DNA from: Akkermansiaceae bacterium
GTDB lineage: Bacteria; Verrucomicrobiota; Verrucomicrobiia; Verrucomicrobiales; Akkermansiaceae
DNA: 55,014 nt
Direction: 5' to 3'
NCBI GenBank assembly: GCA_025354565.1
Contig: JANXMQ010000112.1
Span: 1 to 55,014 of the forward strand
Position numbers and translations under genes: made by a program
Part shown: positions 27,628 through 35,308 of the stretch, one piece after another
How the letters are laid out: every line of letters starts with the position of its first letter
Position numbering within the stretch: the first letter of the stretch is position 1
Notes under the pieces: generated by a model
What the model was told of the DNA's origin: nothing
What the model saw: the letters and a program-made list of their open reading frames with translations, nothing else
Databases searched by the model: none

Positions 27628-29123
27628 GACATTTCTGAAATTGCCAGAGCGTGGTCGCGCAGCGCCTTGCTCGCGTGCTTGCGGTCGTCAAAGTCGATGG
27701 TGTGATCGGAAAATTGTTGGGTTGACTCATGACCCTTGCCGGCGATGAGAATAATGTCGCCGGCGTGCGAGTTCCGCACCGCGAAGTTGATCGCCTCGTC
27801 GCGGTCCGAGATGCTGCGGAAGGTCTTGCCCATAAGGCCAGCCTCAATCTCGCGGATGATAGTTAGAGGATCCTCCGAACGCGGATTGTCTGAGGTGACG
27901 ACGCAGGCATCGCTATACCGGGCGGCGGCGACAGCCATCAGCGGCCGCTTGCCCTTGTCACGATCACCGCCGCAACCGAAGACGGTGATGAGATGGCGCG
28001 GGTTGAGTTCCCGAAGCGTGCGGCAGGCGTTTTCCATGGCGTCCGGGGTGTGTGCGTAATCGACGAAAACCGTTGCCCCGCCGGCATTGCCGACGTTTTC
28101 CATCCGCCCTGGAACCTGCGGTGCATTGGCTACCGCAGCCACCGCATCACGCGGGCGGATGCCGCAGGCGCTGGCGGCGGCGATGGCAGCTAACAGGTTG
28201 TAAACATTAAAACGACCGATCAGAGGCGCTCGGACGAGATAGGTTTTTCCCTTCGCAGCGAGTTCGAAAGACATTCCCCGTGCGGTCTGGAGGAAATTGT
28301 TAGCGCGGAAATCACAGTGAACGCCGAAGCCGAAACGGAGCACCGGCATTTTCCCATCCAACGCGGCGGCAAGCTCTGCGCCACGGGCGTCGTCGGTGTT
28401 AATGACAGCCACTGGATTTTTACCATGCGGATTTGCGGCCAGCTCATGGAACCAATCCGCCTTCGCTTTGAAATAGGCATCGAGCGTGCCGTGATAGTCG
28501 AGGTGGTCTTGTGTTAGATTGGTGAACACGCAGGCGTCAAAGCCGATCGAGGAAATCCGCTTCTGATGGATGCCATGAGAGGAAACCTCTAGCGCCACGC
28601 CCCGGCAACCGTTATCTTTCATGCGGCCGAGCAGCGCTGATAGTTCGATGGAACCGGGCGTGGTGTGTTTGGCGGACTCCACGGTTTCACCGTCATCAAC
28701 AAGGATCGTGCCGAGCAAACCGGCGCGGTGCCATGCCGTTTTCATCAGATGATGGAGCAAGAAAGCAGTGGTCGTTTTGCCGTTCGTGCCGGTGACGCCA
28801 GCCATCACCAGGTCTTTCCAAGGATGCCCGGCCATGGTCGAGGCTAGGGCGGAAACGGCCGCGCGGCTATCAGGAACGTGCAGCCAGGTTGCAGAGCCAT
28901 GATAGTCGGCAGGCTGCGCGGATTCTGCCAGAATTGCGGCGGCACCAGCAGTTAGAGCGTCATTAATGAAACGATGGCCATCGATCATCGTACCCCGGAT
29001 CGCGGCAAACATCATGCCCGGAGCCACCTCGCGCGAAGACGCGGTGATGCCATGCACTTCCGTATCCAACGATCCGGCGATCGTGACTCTTGATAGACAG
29101 GATGCAAGGTCGCGGAGAATCAT
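27624..29123 (-). CDS. murE: UDP-MurNAc-L-Ala-D-Glu--diaminopimelate ligase MurE
   Basis: MurE adds the third residue of the stem peptide. The 499-residue protein has the ATP loop GVTGTNGKTTTAFLL (about residues 110-124), HTTPGSIEL, ALEVSSHGIHQ, FTNLTQDHLDYHGT, and the C-terminal SDNPRSEDP. The D-N-P-R motif is the known marker for meso-diaminopimelate specificity, as opposed to lysine, so the peptidoglycan is predicted to be the DAP type. The start overlaps ftsI by 4 nt and the stop overlaps murF by 4 nt. Confidence 0.96.
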   Translation of the reverse strand: MILRDLASCLSRVTIAGSLDTEVHGITASSREVAPGMMFAAIRGTMIDGHRFINDALTAGAAAILAESAQPADYHGSATWLHVPDSRAAVSALASTMAGHPWKDLVMAGVTGTNGKTTTAFLLHHLMKTAWHRAGLLGTILVDDGETVESAKHTTPGSIELSALLGRMKDNGCRGVALEVSSHGIHQKRISSIGFDACVFTNLTQDHLDYHGTLDAYFKAKADWFHELAANPHGKNPVAVINTDDARGAELAAALDGKMPVLRFGFGVHCDFRANNFLQTARGMSFELAAKGKTYLVRAPLIGRFNVYNLLAAIAAASACGIRPRDAVAAVANAPQVPGRMENVGNAGGATVFVDYAHTPDAMENACRTLRELNPRHLITVFGCGGDRDKGKRPLMAVAAARYSDACVVTSDNPRSEDPLTIIREIEAGLMGKTFRSISDRDEAINFAVRNSHAGDIILIAGKGHESTQQFSDHTIDFDDRKHASKALRDHALAISEMS

Positions 29124-31036
29124 CGGGTGGTGGCGGCAAGCGGTGGGACGATGGGTTCGGTGGGTTGCAAATTCATGTGCGCGGCGACGCGGGTGGCGAT
29201 CTTGCTGAAGACCGGCGCGGCGATCAGTCCGCCTTGATGTTTGATGGTCGGAATGCGCGGGTCATCGATCACCACCACGCAGACAAAGGCCGGATCTTCG
29301 GCGGGCATCATACCGGCGAACGAGGTGATCATTTTATCGGTGTAATAACCGCCTCGTGGATTGTGCTTCTGGACGGTGCCGGTTTTCCCTGCCACTAGAA
29401 AACCCGCTACAGCAGCGCGGGTGGCGGTGCCGGCCTTGACGACTTTTTCCAAGGCCGTGCGCATGAGTGATGCGGTCTTCGGCTTGATCACCTCGTTCAC
29501 GATTTCTGGGGGATAATCTTCGACGACGGTGCCATCATTCGCAATGAGTGATTTGACGATATGGGGTTTCCTGAGTTTGCCGTCACTGGCGATGGCCGAG
29601 TAGGCGCAAGCCAGTTGCAACGGCGTCACGTTGGATGCATAACCATAACAAGCGCGTGAAAAATCCACTTCATTGCCTGTGTTGCGGGCGGTTCCCGAGC
29701 TTTCACCACTCAATAAAATTCCGGTTTTTCGGCCAAAACCATAACTGTGGAGATAATCATAGAATCGTTTCGCTCCCAACTGCCGACCAATACTATAGGT
29801 GCCATTGTTATTCGATTTCTGAAGTACGCCCTCAAAGCTCAGAATGCCTGCCGGATGATCATCTTTTACCACATAGCCCTTGCCCTGATAGAAACCATTG
29901 TGACAGAAAATCGAAGTTTGGGGGGTGACTAAACCTTCATTGAGCGCGCCGGAAGTCGCAACGATCTTGATTGTTGAGCCGGGTTCATAAATCGCCTGGA
30001 TCGCATAGTTGTAGCCATTTTCAGCGAGGTCCTGCTTGAGGTTCAGATCAAACTGGGGTCGGCTTGCCATGGCGAGAATTTCACCCGTTTTCGGATCCAT
30101 TAGTATAACCGCGCCACGGGCGGACTGAAATTCCGCCAGCCCCTTGTCCAGCTCTTCCTCGACGATCGACTGAATGCCCATGTCGATCGTGAGTTTGACG
30201 TTCAAGCCCGCGCGCGGCGGCTTCAGACTCGCTGAATTCCCAGGCACCACAAGTCCCCTCGCATCGCGGAAATGCTCGCGCGAGCCATCACGTCCTGCTA
30301 GAAATGCCTCCATCGACGACTCCACTCCGAACAGCCCGAGCACCTGTGTGTGTGGCTTGCCTTCGTCGTCCTTTTTCTCCACCTCACCGGTGAAGCCGAT
30401 CAGGTGGGTTGCCTGATTCGGTGCCGTGTACCAGCGTTTGATAGAGTTCTCGAATTCAAAGCCGCCGACCCAATGACTTTCGACGGCATCGCGCAAATTA
30501 TCCGCCACATCTTCCGGCAGATCCTTGGCAATCGCGAGCCACTCGCCCTTGCTGTGTTCGATTTTTTCGCGGAGTTCCTCGCGGCGCATGCCAAGCGGAC
30601 GGGCGAGAATGCTGATCGCATAGGCAAGGTGTTTTTGCACGATCGCGTCCGCAGTCTCCCGCGCTAGGATTTCTCCCCGCAGCCCGTTGATGCGGCGACG
30701 CTGTTGAACAGGATCGAGCAAATTCCAACCGGGTTCCGCGCTGGCTTCCTGATAGGCGAGTCCGAAGCTGGCGAGCTTGGGATCATTGAGGTGTTTTTTG
30801 TCCAGAAAAACGGTGGCGACAGGAATACTTTTCGCGAGCGGCTCTTCATGACGATCCACTATCTCGCCGCGGCTGGCGGAGAGTTTTTCGGTACGGTGAT
30901 AGGCCTTCCGTGAGTTTTCCGCATAGCGCTGGCGATCCACTAACTGAATTTGCACTAATCTCCCTGAGAGCACGCTCAGTCCGGTCACGAGGACCAAACA
31001 CAAGATGATGCAACGGGTTTGAAAGGTGGATTTCAC
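29120..31036 (-). CDS. ftsI: Septal peptidoglycan transpeptidase FtsI (PBP3-type)
   Basis: This class B penicillin-binding protein cross-links septal peptidoglycan in the periplasm. The 638-residue protein has one membrane anchor (residues 8-28), then the R-G-x-I-x-D motif (SRGEIVDR, about 55-62). In the transpeptidase domain the catalytic S-x-x-K is STIK (354-357), S-x-N is SNN (408-410), and K-T-G is KTG (551-553). It overlaps murE and sits 3 nt after the FtsL-like gene. There is no C-terminal PASTA domain. Confidence 0.95.
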   Translation of the reverse strand: MKSTFQTRCIILCLVLVTGLSVLSGRLVQIQLVDRQRYAENSRKAYHRTEKLSASRGEIVDRHEEPLAKSIPVATVFLDKKHLNDPKLASFGLAYQEASAEPGWNLLDPVQQRRRINGLRGEILARETADAIVQKHLAYAISILARPLGMRREELREKIEHSKGEWLAIAKDLPEDVADNLRDAVESHWVGGFEFENSIKRWYTAPNQATHLIGFTGEVEKKDDEGKPHTQVLGLFGVESSMEAFLAGRDGSREHFRDARGLVVPGNSASLKPPRAGLNVKLTIDMGIQSIVEEELDKGLAEFQSARGAVILMDPKTGEILAMASRPQFDLNLKQDLAENGYNYAIQAIYEPGSTIKIVATSGALNEGLVTPQTSIFCHNGFYQGKGYVVKDDHPAGILSFEGVLQKSNNNGTYSIGRQLGAKRFYDYLHSYGFGRKTGILLSGESSGTARNTGNEVDFSRACYGYASNVTPLQLACAYSAIASDGKLRKPHIVKSLIANDGTVVEDYPPEIVNEVIKPKTASLMRTALEKVVKAGTATRAAVAGFLVAGKTGTVQKHNPRGGYYTDKMITSFAGMMPAEDPAFVCVVVIDDPRIPTIKHQGGLIAAPVFSKIATRVAAHMNLQPTEPIVPPLAATTR

Positions 31037-31039
31037 AGA

Positions 31040-31381
31040 CTATGGAGTGGTGGACGCGACGGTGTGGTTGGCGGTTGGGGCGGCTTCGATATCTTCGACT
31101 ACGCCGATGGGAATCGGACGCAGGGCTGAACCGTTGGATTCAATTTGTTTACGAATGACAAAGCGGTTTAGCAGTTCATCCATCCGCATCTCACTGATCC
31201 GGATGTCGAGTCGCTCCTGCTCGACATGGCGGTCGATGGCATCAATTTCCCGGCTGATTTGAACTTGGCGATTTTTATAATAAGCGTGGGCGACACCACC
31301 GGTCGCCGCGATCACCGCAGCGAGAATGAGTGAGACAAACACCCATGCGGGCGTGCGGGATTCGTTGCGGCGGTGGTTCAT
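31040..31381 (-). CDS. ftsL: FtsL-like bitopic division protein
   Basis: The 113-residue protein has a short basic cytoplasmic tail, one membrane helix (VFVSLILAAVIAATGGVAHA, about 14-33), and a coiled-coil segment (ISREIDAIDRHVEQERLDIRISEMRMDELL). FtsL is poorly conserved in sequence and is named here from topology and from its fixed place between rsmH and ftsI. It would scaffold FtsB/FtsQ-type partners at the division site. A disordered Pro/Thr-rich tail after residue 80 is unusual. The start overlaps the rsmH stop by 4 nt. Confidence 0.75.
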   Translation of the reverse strand: MNHRRNESRTPAWVFVSLILAAVIAATGGVAHAYYKNRQVQISREIDAIDRHVEQERLDIRISEMRMDELLNRFVIRKQIESNGSALRPIPIGVVEDIEAAPTANHTVASTTP

Positions 31382-32343
31382 GGCTTGGGGTCCAAAAGCT
31401 GGGCAACCCGCAGTTTTGCACTGCGGGCTCGCGGGTTCAGGGAGATTTCCTCGGCGGTGGGCACGATGGCTTTACGGGCCAGCAGGCGGAATTGGTAGTC
31501 CGGATTCGGCCTAGGTTCCGGCCATCCTGGATCGTCGAGATATTCGGTGGAACGATGTTTGAGAAAATGTTTTACGATCCGATCTTCGAGGCTGTGGAAT
31601 GTAATGATTAACAAACGCCCCCCCGGTTTGAGTACGGCGGGCGCAGATGCTAGAGCGGCGGATAGCGATTCGAGCTCCTCGTTCACCGCCATGCGAATCG
31701 CCTGGAAGGTTTTGGTCGCGGGGTGAGTCCGGCCATGACGACCGATGGTGTGCTCGATGCAGTTTGCGAGATCATGGGTGGTGGAAAACGGCTTGATGGC
31801 ACGTTGCTTGACGATGGCTCCGGCGATCCGGCGGGCCTTGGATTCCTCACCGTATTCAAACAGAATCCTAACAATTTCCGCTTCCGGCCAACGATTCACG
31901 ATGTCCGCCGCCGTGCGTGGGCTAGATGGTCCCATCCGCATATCTAACGGCCCCTCGCGCATGAAGGAAAATCCCCGCACGGCGGAGTCAAGCTGGCGGG
32001 AAGAAACCCCGAGATCCATCAGCAGGCCATCGGCCAGTTCCCCCCTTTGGATCCCGGGGATTTCCGGGAGGCGTGAGAAGTTTCCCTCCCACGTGGAAAA
32101 GCGTTCGCCGAATGCGGCAAGTCGGGCACGAGCATAGGCCAGCGCTTCTGGATCACGGTCCACACCCAACACCGTGGCCCCGGCTTTCAGGAAAATCTCA
32201 CTATGCCCGCCACCGCCGAGCGTGCCATCAATGATGAATTTTCCCACAGCGGGAGACATCCAGTTGGCGATTTCCGCTGGGAAAACCGGAAGGTGATAGT
32301 CAGCGGGCGCTGCGGGTGCTGAGAAAAAAACAGGAGTCCGCAC
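31378..32343 (-). CDS. rsmH: 16S rRNA (cytosine(1402)-N4)-methyltransferase RsmH
   Basis: RsmH methylates C1402 of 16S rRNA in the decoding centre. The family blocks are HLPVFPAEIANWM, then IDGTLGGGGHSEIFL (SAM loop), LGVDRDPEAL, DGLLMDLGVSSRQLD, GFSFMREGPLDMRMG and LLIITFHSLEDRIVKHF. The same frame stays open for another 128 codons to an ATG at 32725-32727. That extension is made of the 105-bp repeats described separately and matches no known RsmH. I chose the GTG at 32341-32343, which leaves a normal 321-residue enzyme. An ftsL overlap of 4 nt lies at the other end. If translation starts at 32727 instead, the protein would carry a novel 128-residue repeat head. Confidence 0.92.
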   Translation of the reverse strand: MRTPVFFSAPAAPADYHLPVFPAEIANWMSPAVGKFIIDGTLGGGGHSEIFLKAGATVLGVDRDPEALAYARARLAAFGERFSTWEGNFSRLPEIPGIQRGELADGLLMDLGVSSRQLDSAVRGFSFMREGPLDMRMGPSSPRTAADIVNRWPEAEIVRILFEYGEESKARRIAGAIVKQRAIKPFSTTHDLANCIEHTIGRHGRTHPATKTFQAIRMAVNEELESLSAALASAPAVLKPGGRLLIITFHSLEDRIVKHFLKHRSTEYLDDPGWPEPRPNPDYQFRLLARKAIVPTAEEISLNPRARSAKLRVAQLLDPKP

Positions 32344-32635
32344 CGACAACCAGCCAGGAGCGATGCGGACATCCGTTAGGTTCGACAAAGCGGTGTGCTG
32401 TCCCGAGCGCACCGTTTCGTCTGAAGGGAAAATTTGCGATGGCCGCACTGACAACCAGCCAGGAGCAGTGCGGACCATCGTTCCAAATAGCGCGAGAAGC
32501 TCTGTCCCGAGAGACTTCATGCGCCCAGCCAGGAAAATCACCGGACGCCGCACCGACAACCAGCCAGGAGCGGTGCGGACATCCGTTAGGTTCGACAAGG
32601 CGGCGGACTGTCCCGAGCGCGCCGCTTCATCTGAA
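32336..32635. repeat. Three 105-bp tandem repeats, each with two covarying hairpins
   Basis: The 15-base loop ACAACCAGCCAGGAG occurs at 32346, 32451 and 32556, exactly 105 bp apart. Each copy is flanked by complementary arms. The arms are CCGCACCG/CGATGCGG, CCGCACTG/CAGTGCGG and CCGCACCG/CGGTGCGG. The pair next to the central part changes on both sides between copies. About 38 bases later each copy has a second hairpin whose 8-base loop TGTCCCGA (32399, 32503, 32609) is constant while its stem differs: CGGTG/CACCG, GAAG/CTTC and CGGCG/CGCCG. Conserved loops with compensating stems show selection for structure in DNA or RNA. The array lies between mraZ and rsmH and is read in the antisense orientation by the operon. 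Confidence 0.85.
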
Positions 32636-32642
32636 AAGAGTC

Positions 32643-32712
32643 CCAATCCTGACACGCGGGCGAGAGCGACCGGAGCCGCTGTATTGCGGACCGCCTCGAG
32701 TGTCAGAATTGG
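32643..32712. repeat. 13-bp inverted repeat flanking a GC-rich core
   Basis: CCAATCCTGACAC (32643-32655) and GTGTCAGAATTGG (32700-32712) pair at 12 of 13 positions. The 44-base interior can fold again (CCGC/GCGG around TGTATT). It directly borders the 105-bp repeat array and may be part of the same element or an older terminal repeat. Confidence 0.6.
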
Positions 32713-32766
32713 ATGGGTGAACAACATTGCTGCTGTGGGTGTGTGGTGGGTGAGAGTTTGGGAAAG

Positions 32767-33222
32767 TTAGAAGATGCCGAGATAATCCTTCTCGACTGGG
32801 CGTGATTCGATGCCGAGAACCACATCAAAATTCGCGCTGCTCCAGACCTCGAAGTAGTTACCGCGTCCGGCGAGGACGACATCGGATTCGGCCGTGATCC
32901 CGGACTTTTCGCTCAGGTCCTTCGGGATGAGCAGCTTGCCTTGGTCGTTCAAGGTCACCTCTTTGCAGAGCATCGCCAACTTGCCAAGCATCTGGCTTTT
33001 TTCCGCCGGGGTATGGTTCTCGCTGCCTTTGATCAGCGCCACTTTTTCGTCATAGGCCTCCTCGCTGAGCACCTTGACGACCGGCAAATCGTATGAATGT
33101 GAGAATTGAAGGAACAGCGGCGCGTTCGCTTCTGGACGCCAACCCGTCGGGATGGAAACCCGATACTTCGGATCCATCTTGTAGGGAGTAAATCCCCTAT
33201 AACGTTGTTCGGTGGTGCTCAC
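32767..33222 (-). CDS. mraZ: Transcriptional regulator MraZ
   Basis: MraZ is the AbrB-like repressor that opens the division and cell-wall cluster and controls it by binding repeats in its own promoter. The product has two swapped-hairpin halves. The first begins RGFTPYKMDPKYRVSIPTGW, and the second contains EVTLNDQGKLLIPKDLSEKSGI; both carry the D-x-x-x-R/K-x-x-I-P core. I chose GTG at 33220-33222 (151 residues). A TTG start further up would overlap the putative binding boxes. It is followed by the hairpin array and rsmH on the same strand. Confidence 0.92.
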   Translation of the reverse strand: MSTTEQRYRGFTPYKMDPKYRVSIPTGWRPEANAPLFLQFSHSYDLPVVKVLSEEAYDEKVALIKGSENHTPAEKSQMLGKLAMLCKEVTLNDQGKLLIPKDLSEKSGITAESDVVLAGRGNYFEVWSSANFDVVLGIESRPVEKDYLGIF

Positions 33223-33252
33223 GGCTGGAACTGACCTTCGTGTCAGTGCCCA

Positions 33253-33272
33253 AAAGTACACCAAAGTACACT
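33253..33272. promoter_or_regulatory. Putative MraZ operator: two tandem 10-bp boxes
   Basis: AAAGTACACC (33253-33262) is followed directly by AAAGTACACT (33263-33272). A 10-bp period with an AAAGT(G/A)-type box fits published MraZ boxes of other bacteria as I recall them. The boxes end 31 bases upstream of the chosen mraZ start, as expected for autoregulation. Confidence 0.65.
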
Positions 33273-33592: not shown

Positions 33593-34351
33593 ATGAACGT
33601 CTTGAAACTCGGTTTGTCAATCTGGATTTGCTTGCTCACTTGGGTCGTGCCAAGCCGGGGGCAGTCGTTGCCAGACGCTAGGACCCATCGCGTACTAGAC
33701 CCGCCCGCTGGTGGCATCATCGACAGCGGCGGTTTTTTCGCGCGGGATCCCATCGCGCTCAAGCGGATTTCCGAGTCCATACTTAAATTGAAACGAGACT
33801 GCGGCTACCAAATCTACCTCGTGGTCGAGCCCGTGCTGATCACCACCACCGCCCCCGAACGTGCGGCACAACTGCGTCAGGCATGGCTGCCTGACGGCAA
33901 CGGTCTGGTGGTGGTCTTCGAGTCGGACAGCCGCAATGTCGGCATCGGCCGCGAAATGGCAGGAATCCCGGCTCAACAGGATAGCGCCGCCCGCATTCCG
34001 ACGCATGAAACGGATGCCATGCTCACGCGGACCCTGGAGGCGACGGACTCCAAGCTGGCTCCGGAACCCTATTTGGAAGCGCTTATGGGCAACCTGACCC
34101 GCGAGTTCGAGCGGTATTTCAAACTCCGTGGCACCCCACCACCAGCGGAGCGGACGATGAAAATCGGCCTGCTGGTCGTCGGCACGCTCTCCTTGTTAGG
34201 ACTAGTCGGCATCGGCTTGGGCAGCATCATTCGGCATACCAGCATGTCCGGGGTCCGCAGTTTCCGCTTCCCTCTGGTGGACCGACCCGAGCGTCTCGGT
34301 GCGATCTGCGGTGCCAGCGTCACTGCCCGCCGCTTCGCGCCAAAGGGCTGA
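33593..34351 (+). CDS. Secreted TPM-domain protein with C-terminal membrane anchor
   Basis: The 252-residue protein has a signal peptide (LGLSIWICLLTWVVPSRGQS) and a TPM-like domain at about residues 50-180. That domain contains KRDCGYQIYLVVEP, ERAAQLRQAWLPDGNGLVVVFESDSRNVGIG. A membrane segment follows (IGLLVVGTLSLLGLVGIGLGSII, about 193-215), with a short basic cytoplasmic tail. TPM domains occur in photosystem-repair and other envelope proteins with uncertain phosphatase activity. It stands 73 nt before uppP in the same direction and may share a transcript. No specific role can be given. Confidence 0.65.
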   Translation: MNVLKLGLSIWICLLTWVVPSRGQSLPDARTHRVLDPPAGGIIDSGGFFARDPIALKRISESILKLKRDCGYQIYLVVEPVLITTTAPERAAQLRQAWLPDGNGLVVVFESDSRNVGIGREMAGIPAQQDSAARIPTHETDAMLTRTLEATDSKLAPEPYLEALMGNLTREFERYFKLRGTPPPAERTMKIGLLVVGTLSLLGLVGIGLGSIIRHTSMSGVRSFRFPLVDRPERLGAICGASVTARRFAPKG

Positions 34352-34423
34352 ACTCGCCGCTATTGCCTGTCGCTATTGCCTTGCGCAAAGTCCGCCCGTT
34401 CCCCAACTTCGCGGAAATTCACC

Positions 34424-35308
34424 ATGCATCCTTGGCAAGCATTCATCCTAGGCGTGATCGAAGGGATCACCGAGTATCTTCCTATCAGTTCCACCGGTCA
34501 TTTGATCGTCGCCCAACGCATCATGGGCATTGGTGTCGGCGGCCCGGAAGCCAAGGCGGCGGCGGATGCCTTCGCGGTGTGCATCCAAGGCGGTGCGATT
34601 CTCGCGGTGCTCGGGCTCTATTGGAAACGGGTGCTTCAAATGATCCAGGGTGTGCTGGGTAAAAACCCCGAAGGCCTGAAACTTGCCATCAACATCATCG
34701 CCGGATTCATGCCCGCCGCAGTCATCGGCGTGATTCTCAGCCACAAGATCAAGGAGCACCTGTTTGGCATGTGGCCGGTAATCATCGCTTGGATCATCGG
34801 TGGCGTTGGCATTCTAACCGTCGCATGGTGGAACCGGAAAAAATCCTCACGAAACGGCGGTTCCGAGCTTGGTGAATTGACCCTGAAGATGGCCCTCATC
34901 ATCGGCCTGTTGCAATGCGTGGCGATGTGCCCCGGCACCAGCCGCAGCCTCATGACCATCTGCGGCGGATTACTCGTCGGCCTGTCGATCCGCGCGGCGG
35001 TGGAATACTCATTTCTGCTGGGCGTGCTCACACTCACCGCCGCCACGGTCAAGGAGTCGGTGGAAAAAGTGAAAGACCTCGATCCAGCTTACAACCATCT
35101 CTTCGGCGGCACCAAGCTGATGATCCACGCATACGGGAGCATGCCGCTGTTCATTGGCATCATCGCCGCTGCAATATCCGCCGCGCTGGCGGTGAAATGG
35201 CTGGTTGCCTATTTGCAAAGCCACGGGCTATCCGTGTTCGGCTGGTATCGCATCGCGCTCGGTCTGACCATCGCCGGGTTGATCGTCGGTGGGGTTATCA
35301 CCGCGTAA
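34424..35308 (+). CDS. uppP: Undecaprenyl-diphosphatase UppP (BacA)
   Basis: UppP removes a phosphate from undecaprenyl diphosphate and so recycles the lipid carrier used by MraY and by polysaccharide export. The 294-residue protein has about eight membrane segments. Both signature motifs are present: EGITEYLPISSTGHLIV (about residues 14-30) and MCPGTSRSLMTICGG (about 167-181), with the essential Glu, His and Arg. An upstream in-frame start at 34376 would add 16 residues before the conserved MHPWQAFILGVIEG; I chose the ATG at 34424. Confidence 0.94.
   Translation: MHPWQAFILGVIEGITEYLPISSTGHLIVAQRIMGIGVGGPEAKAAADAFAVCIQGGAILAVLGLYWKRVLQMIQGVLGKNPEGLKLAINIIAGFMPAAVIGVILSHKIKEHLFGMWPVIIAWIIGGVGILTVAWWNRKKSSRNGGSELGELTLKMALIIGLLQCVAMCPGTSRSLMTICGGLLVGLSIRAAVEYSFLLGVLTLTAATVKESVEKVKDLDPAYNHLFGGTKLMIHAYGSMPLFIGIIAAAISAALAVKWLVAYLQSHGLSVFGWYRIALGLTIAGLIVGGVITA

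Follow-up and report, generated by a model that had tools for sequence, protein, structure and literature searches.

What kind of element is a tandem row of hairpins, with fixed loops and changing stems, between mraZ and the methyltransferase core of rsmH? The question arises on an Akkermansiaceae contig, in what we call the window, the whole stretch of 55,014 nucleotides analyzed, where the original prediction described three repeats exactly 105 bp apart. This spacing holds for the 15-mer ACAACCAGCCAGGAG, found exactly at 32346, 32451, and 32556, but not for the 8-mer TGTCCCGA, whose copies at 32399, 32503, and 32609 lie 104 and 106 bp apart. The three second stems quoted with them (CGGTG/CACCG, GAAG/CTTC, and CGGCG/CGCCG) are correct in the sequence. 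The 5.1 Mb assembly holds no further exact copy of the 15-mer. With up to three mismatches just three sites are found in the window, and 18 of 100 shuffles reach three loose matches too; the evidence thus lies in the exact matches and the structure, not in loose similarity. Repeat finding in the window returned one family of 103 nt in two copies and another of 56 nt in three.

The strand as first presented has to be reversed, for mraZ, rsmH, and the downstream FtsI-like gene all lie on the minus strand, as does the folded RNA (table 1). On this sense strand each unit comprises hairpin B, with about 12–14 pairs and the loop UCGGGACA, and hairpin A, in which about eight inner pairs, a bulged base, and about six outer pairs enclose the loop CUCCUGGCUGGUUGU. 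The three units span 32637–32327, ahead of the methyltransferase core. Since a 449-codon frame from the ATG at 32727 crosses them into RsmH, the repeats belong to the rsmH frame and not to an untranslated leader. The earlier placement in the leader of rsmH errs on one point, since the array is in frame with RsmH, a frame open across it in 60 of 62 loci. Divergent from mraZ are a protein without a Pfam match (33593–34348, plus strand) and then a BacA (UppP) family protein (34376–35305, plus strand). Positions 1–150 of the window are repeated sequence, near-identical to a stretch on another contig (G000:C192, L009).

Table 1. Features of the rsmH locus, in window coordinates.
Feature	Position	Strand	Basis
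rsmH reading frame, 449 codons, predicted start ATG 32727	31378..32727	-	ORF; TIGR00006 RsmH and PF01795 match residues 144-443
RsmH N-terminal extension, residues 1-143, bearing the array; predicted disordered	32299..32727	-	AlphaFold2 pLDDT <50 for residues 1-141; codon positions change almost evenly among relatives
Unit 1, transcribed before the other two; hairpin B stem 32630-32595, hairpin A stem 32586-32541	32537..32637	-	Alignment row; R1 86.2 bits (training-set member)
Unit 2; hairpin B 32524-32489 (with bulge), hairpin A 32481-32436	32432..32531	-	Alignment row; R1 85.1 bits (training-set member)
Unit 3; hairpin B 32420-32385, hairpin A 32376-32331	32327..32427	-	Alignment row; R1 79.3 bits (training-set member)
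Loop B UCGGGACA	32399..32406 (unit 3); others 32503-32510, 32609-32616	-	Sequence; Leu-Gly-Thr codons CTC GGG ACA in 167/178
Loop A CUCCUGGCUGGUUGU	32346..32360 (unit 3); others 32451-32465, 32556-32570	-	Sequence; Gly-Trp-Leu codons GGC 197/199, TTG 198/199
mraZ, gene preceding rsmH; longest frame, start codon uncertain	32767..33264	-	PF02381 MraZ, E 4.3e-9, part tested 32770-33228
FtsI-like penicillin-binding protein, downstream of rsmH	29120..31036	-	PF00905 and PF03717

The pattern of change among related units provides the main clues on what is selected. Exact matches to GGCTGGTTG yielded 200 units from 61 loci, 194 of them with GGGAC upstream; redundancy and spacing filters left 106, of which 80 were aligned and 26, some with odd loops, were left out. 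Across the 80 units, 77 from relatives, 77.5% of the cells at 29 pairs are paired, and 27 of these pairs have changed on both sides. Covariation amounts to 0.453, against 0.190 ± 0.008 in shuffled alignments and 0.117–0.196 in slid controls. Because the units are related, disjoint nearest pairs from different genomes were used to count compensated double changes. Hairpin A has 24, against a shuffled mean of 2.4 (largest 7 in 500 shuffles), and other tie-breaks in the choice of pairs give 25 and 28. Hairpin B has 22, against a shuffled mean of 4.7 (largest 13); a control slid by −1 column retains 20, as some units are bulged, and the exact register of B is thus softer. RNAalifold alone drew 18 pairs, three of them at hairpin B. 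It is shown by computation that a unit of about 105 nt makes two hairpins whose loops are fixed and whose stems vary freely but with compensation, and the original view that the folded form is selected is strongly supported.

Wobble pairs provide a clue on the strand that folds. On the sense strand G·U pairs reach 0.61 of expectation in hairpin A and 0.86 in hairpin B, against 0.28 and 0.69 for A·C. The weaker depletion of G·U favors the transcript as the folded form, and the strand of the gene is the likelier one to fold; single-stranded DNA of that strand, if it formed the hairpins, would prefer G·T to an equal extent. The region as a whole folds better than shuffles on both strands (z −6.5 for the antisense, −4.3 for the sense strand).

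Reading frame and peptide have had different fates. In the array as bounded by its loops, the RsmH frame has three stops over the 8,530 codons of the 62 loci, and the five other frames have 117–197 each. The two loci with stops are L038, from an assembly of 2.3-fold coverage, and L070, with a run of 100 N. Furthermore, the phase of the RsmH core is shared by 207 of 209 A loops. Between the last Gly-Trp-Leu (GWL) and that core, 34 of 61 loci have no ATG, GTG, or TTG, so that at least the last unit should be translated there, barring another start codon. Change at the three codon positions is 0.123/0.131/0.171 in the array and 0.081/0.046/0.317 in the RsmH body (16 hand-chosen pairs of close relatives). 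The unit sets were picked by exact loop words, which biases loop conservation in them, and codons were therefore counted at sites anchored on the peptide. In the Gly-Trp-Leu of loop A, glycine is GGC in 197 of 199 cases and leucine TTG in 198 of 199; in the RsmH body these codons make up 623 of 1470 and 269 of 1963, respectively. The Leu-Gly-Thr of loop B is encoded as CTC GGG ACA in 167 of 178 cases. Relative to loop A, loop B is shifted in frame in 15 of 194 units; two of the three window units are such cases, with Ser-Gly-Gln in place of Leu-Gly-Thr. A protein domain in the N-terminal extension was considered and rejected: residues 1–143 match no Pfam or NCBIfam family, and AlphaFold2, with an alignment of 28 sequences, gives residues 1–141 a pLDDT below 50. 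It is shown by computation that the frame through the array is kept open while the peptide is nearly unconstrained. The original prediction had set conservation of the same bases as protein-coding sequence against a selected fold; such conservation extends to the frame only, not to the peptide, and so the structure is not refuted.

To which genes and lineages does the array belong? A search of relatives with covariance models, as originally proposed, recovered the array family at rsmH in a single clade. A scan for RsmH kept 80 of 456 relatives. The array is present at 53 loci (L023–L075) of MAGs and isolates named Akkermansiaceae, Luteolibacter, Haloferula, and similar, and none was seen at L076–L102, judged by frame listing for L076–L083 and otherwise by the span of the RsmH match. 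Several of the bearing MAGs are titled Akkermansia muciniphila or Prosthecobacter debontii (L026, L027, L028, L039, and others), names that look wrong. In the family as a whole, a set that overlaps these loci and is not independent of them (several contigs agree in length, such as L039 and G146:C4), covariance model R1 matched 61 of 195 genomes with 1 to 8 matches each, namely 44 of 44 in the window's own genus and 17 of 18 in the sister genus g7. The array-negative g7 genome is 72% complete and has no good RsmH match, and R1 found nothing in the remaining 133 family genomes, from 14 genera. Across the order it matched 39 of 288 genomes (2 of 50 genera) and across the phylum 10 of 337 (2 of 171 genera). 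In these large searches stricter filters lose weak matches, E-values are rough, and training units match by construction.

The array adjoins RsmH in 58 of the 61 positive genomes: in 56 a loop A lies at most 1,400 nt upstream of the RsmH motif, and in G149 and G186 an R1 match lies upstream of RsmH near a contig end. In G093 one contig closes with the array and another opens with RsmH, which is consistent with adjacency; for G120 and G170 the position of the array is absent from the matches listed. Among these matches each genome has the array in one place, except G030 and G149, with two contigs each, near contig ends. Assembly breaks within or beside the array are found in G030 (C11 and C16), G149 (C101 and C284), G186 (C408), and G093 (C8 and C107). 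Since assemblies break at the array, the unit numbers of draft genomes are likely under-counted. One exact-pattern match in G158 lies away from the array, is without R1 confirmation among the matches listed, and looks like chance.

A third genus, g11, provides a further view of the element. At all nine of its rsmH loci readable upstream there are two hairpins with the loop AAGGGACG, each preceded by a U-rich stretch and UGGCUGGG. These covary as well (0.257, against 0.09–0.13 in slid controls; 17 of 18 hairpins, without the poly-G copy of L165). In that copy (L165:2404–2467, minus strand) the left arm of the gene-proximal hairpin is a long G run, perhaps misassembled, perhaps a slippery tract. 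Within a g11 genome (e.g., L163, L164) both hairpins carry the same stem changes, which suggests gene conversion between copies. Model R2, built from g11, gave 18 matches in 9 of 10 g11 genomes; in the tenth, RsmH is cut at the contig start. R2 does not match the window's own array. Its weak matches (E 1e-4 to 0.007) fall in eight genomes of the own genus and two of g7, all within or overlapping arrays by coordinates, and none of the R2 matches listed lies outside rsmH. These cross-matches offer a second route to one family, probably shared by the R1 arrays and the g11 hairpins, and support it. In a tree of RsmH (52 of 55 labeled rows; L147, L150, and L172 lack the search motif and were left out) the own genus, g7, and g11 stand together on one side of a branch with support of 100/100. 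Genus g12 falls outside, and the four g12 loci read have no element. The tie of the element to rsmH in one clade is thus shown by computation.

We searched for known families and plausible partners. Rfam gave no match in the window at gathering score, the mraW motif (RF01746) included, and at 32200–32800 two hits that fall well short of the cut-off (E 2.8 and 4.4); a limited literature search found no description of the array element. A riboswitch or a leader of the ribosomal-protein type would sit in an untranslated leader, and here the open frame runs through the units. CsrA is the classic binder of GGA loops, and a GGA is present in loop B (GGGAC) and absent from loop A. As a binder CsrA was rejected, since its family PF02599 was found in 0 of 19 genomes, with 3 of 14 control genomes positive. 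Mimicry of 16S rRNA was likewise set aside: the full loops are absent from the 16S rRNA of six relatives, in which GGGAC and GGCUGG do occur as short words. The g11 loop words AAGGGACGGCU and AAGGGACGGCT (L143, L160–L164, and others) hold 11 nt identical to related-genus 16S near 495–513, probably by chance, a weak lead given that RsmH acts on 16S rRNA. A kissing contact between the UGUC of loop A and the GACA of loop B finds no support in the sister genus, where loop A reads UGGC in 20 units (CCATGGCTGGTTGGC) and loop B is still CGGGACA in 20 of 20.

The readings that compete with an RNA-level control of rsmH can be weighed against these results. The extension might matter as protein, a repeat domain at the RsmH N-terminus with the RNA pattern as its by-product. 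The open frame and the recurring GWLS and LGT peptides would suit this. However, variation at amino-acid-changing positions comes close to that at third positions, the loops hold to the same codons where synonymous ones would serve, loop B occurs in two reading frames, and the extension is predicted disordered and matches no family; we regard the reading as quite improbable. A DNA-level element acting on transcription, as MraZ binding sites or a cruciform, is a little more doubtful still. Although mraZ adjoins rsmH and the units are palindromic as DNA, with both strands folding well, the wobble preference is that of the sense strand, the units are downstream of mraZ and within a coding frame, and their stems vary almost freely, as a duplex DNA site bound by a protein would not. 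The original prediction had also proposed a mobile REP-like or MITE element. Like selfish palindromic repeats such as REPs, MITEs, or Rickettsia palindromic elements, the units are palindromic, tandem, in frame with their host gene, and variable in number, with 1 to 8 model matches per genome. However, no copy lies outside the array among the matches listed for the 195 family genomes with R1 and R2, a search of the own genome for dispersed repeats gave outside the array just weak matches, at chance level by eye, and the element is near-universal in its clade at one site. That a mobile repeat settled in rsmH is thus largely refuted and hardly credible.

Two of the original guesses, a protein-binding RNA array and a transcription attenuator, are still in contention. 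An attenuator coupled to translation is the first rival to consider, a rather unlikely reading, though one with several observations in its favor. Hairpin A and the U-run after it would form weak intrinsic terminators, which closely spaced ribosomes would prevent, so that poor translation would end the transcript short of the division genes. T-runs of three or more, 12–27 nt past loop A, accompany 93% of the 198 units and 16% of random positions further downstream; for runs of four or more the figures are 54% and 7%. The first g11 hairpin is followed by runs such as AATTTTTT, an open frame suits a ribosome-dependent switch, and Rhodobacter is known to have a terminator in the leader of a dcw operon (PMC5089854). 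The geometry, however, is poor, with a loop A of 15 nt and a U-run that begins about 5 nt past the stem, and in eight of nine genomes the gene-proximal g11 hairpin is followed by ATATCAT without a U-run. A simple terminator scan of four loci called no full hairpin and one short stem in the window's array, a weak test, as the scan accepts loops of 3–8 nt without bulges and is blind to the full hairpins. Attenuation also leaves the fixed loops unexplained.

In this context, we put forward that the units form a cis-acting structured RNA array in the translated 5′ part of rsmH, which may tune RsmH expression, a reading that comparative sequence analysis suggests and to which we give about an even chance. 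Fixed loops on free stems resemble a recognized RNA, and from this we infer a control of RsmH amount. Synthesis of RsmH would take the ribosome through the hairpins, whose fixed loops might be the recognition surface for a partner that stabilizes or relieves them. The array would then set the amount of RsmH, and perhaps also how far transcription reaches into ftsI and beyond; several copies could serve as several docking sites or as a graded brake. A point against this reading is that a ribosome in transit would melt the hairpins, so that regulation by the folded state would work only where ribosomes leave gaps.

As partner, RsmH itself, or ribosomes carrying its methyl mark, would be the most economical candidate. 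In a 2026 preprint, efficient translation of Bacillus subtilis mRNAs whose early codons form stem-loops (cmpA, yukJ) reportedly needs ribosomes modified by MraW (RsmH), and structural data cited there have the mark contacting mRNA and stabilizing the P-site (PMC13317604). With hairpins in a row at its start, rsmH would be well placed for the mark to feed back on its own synthesis. By this analogy the array might be a sensor of RsmH activity, C1402-marked ribosomes passing the rsmH hairpins, or starting before them, differently from unmarked ones. The fixed loops would then be tuned to the ribosome or to RsmH, and the rsmH mRNA would read the methylation of the ribosome pool, closing a feedback loop at the head of the division operon. 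We offer this extension tentatively and consider it unlikely as it stands.

The array is a structured RNA family without an Rfam match, set in tandem within an open frame, in which frame and fold are selected and the peptide hardly. Searches for noncoding RNA restricted to intergenic regions would miss it, and protein searches see a disordered tail. Its graded copy number provides a natural system for the ties among rsmH, its ribosome mark, and the division operon.

How does the array compare with known systems? REP and BIME repeats are pairs of short palindromes with conserved parts, and paired palindromes are found in the array too, which, in contrast, is neither dispersed nor extragenic. 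The mraW motif is, presumably, placed in an untranslated leader. This candidate structured RNA of Actinomycetales (RF01746; PMC2864571) is named for mraW, that is rsmH, the gene bearing the array here, but is a different RNA by Rfam search and belongs to another phylum. Rickettsia palindromic elements are palindromic repeats in frame within genes, inserted in many unrelated genes (PMC10969869); the array is likewise palindromic and in frame inside a gene, but it occupies one gene, in one place per genome among the matches listed. The UpsM leader of the Rhodobacter dcw cluster likewise places control at the RNA level where this operon begins, though UpsM stands before mraZ, has an intrinsic terminator, and is not an in-frame array (PMC5089854). 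The B. subtilis stem-loops share with the array an early-codon structure linked to RsmH activity; they sit in other genes, and the sections on them make no mention of tandem units or of rsmH's own mRNA (PMC13317604).
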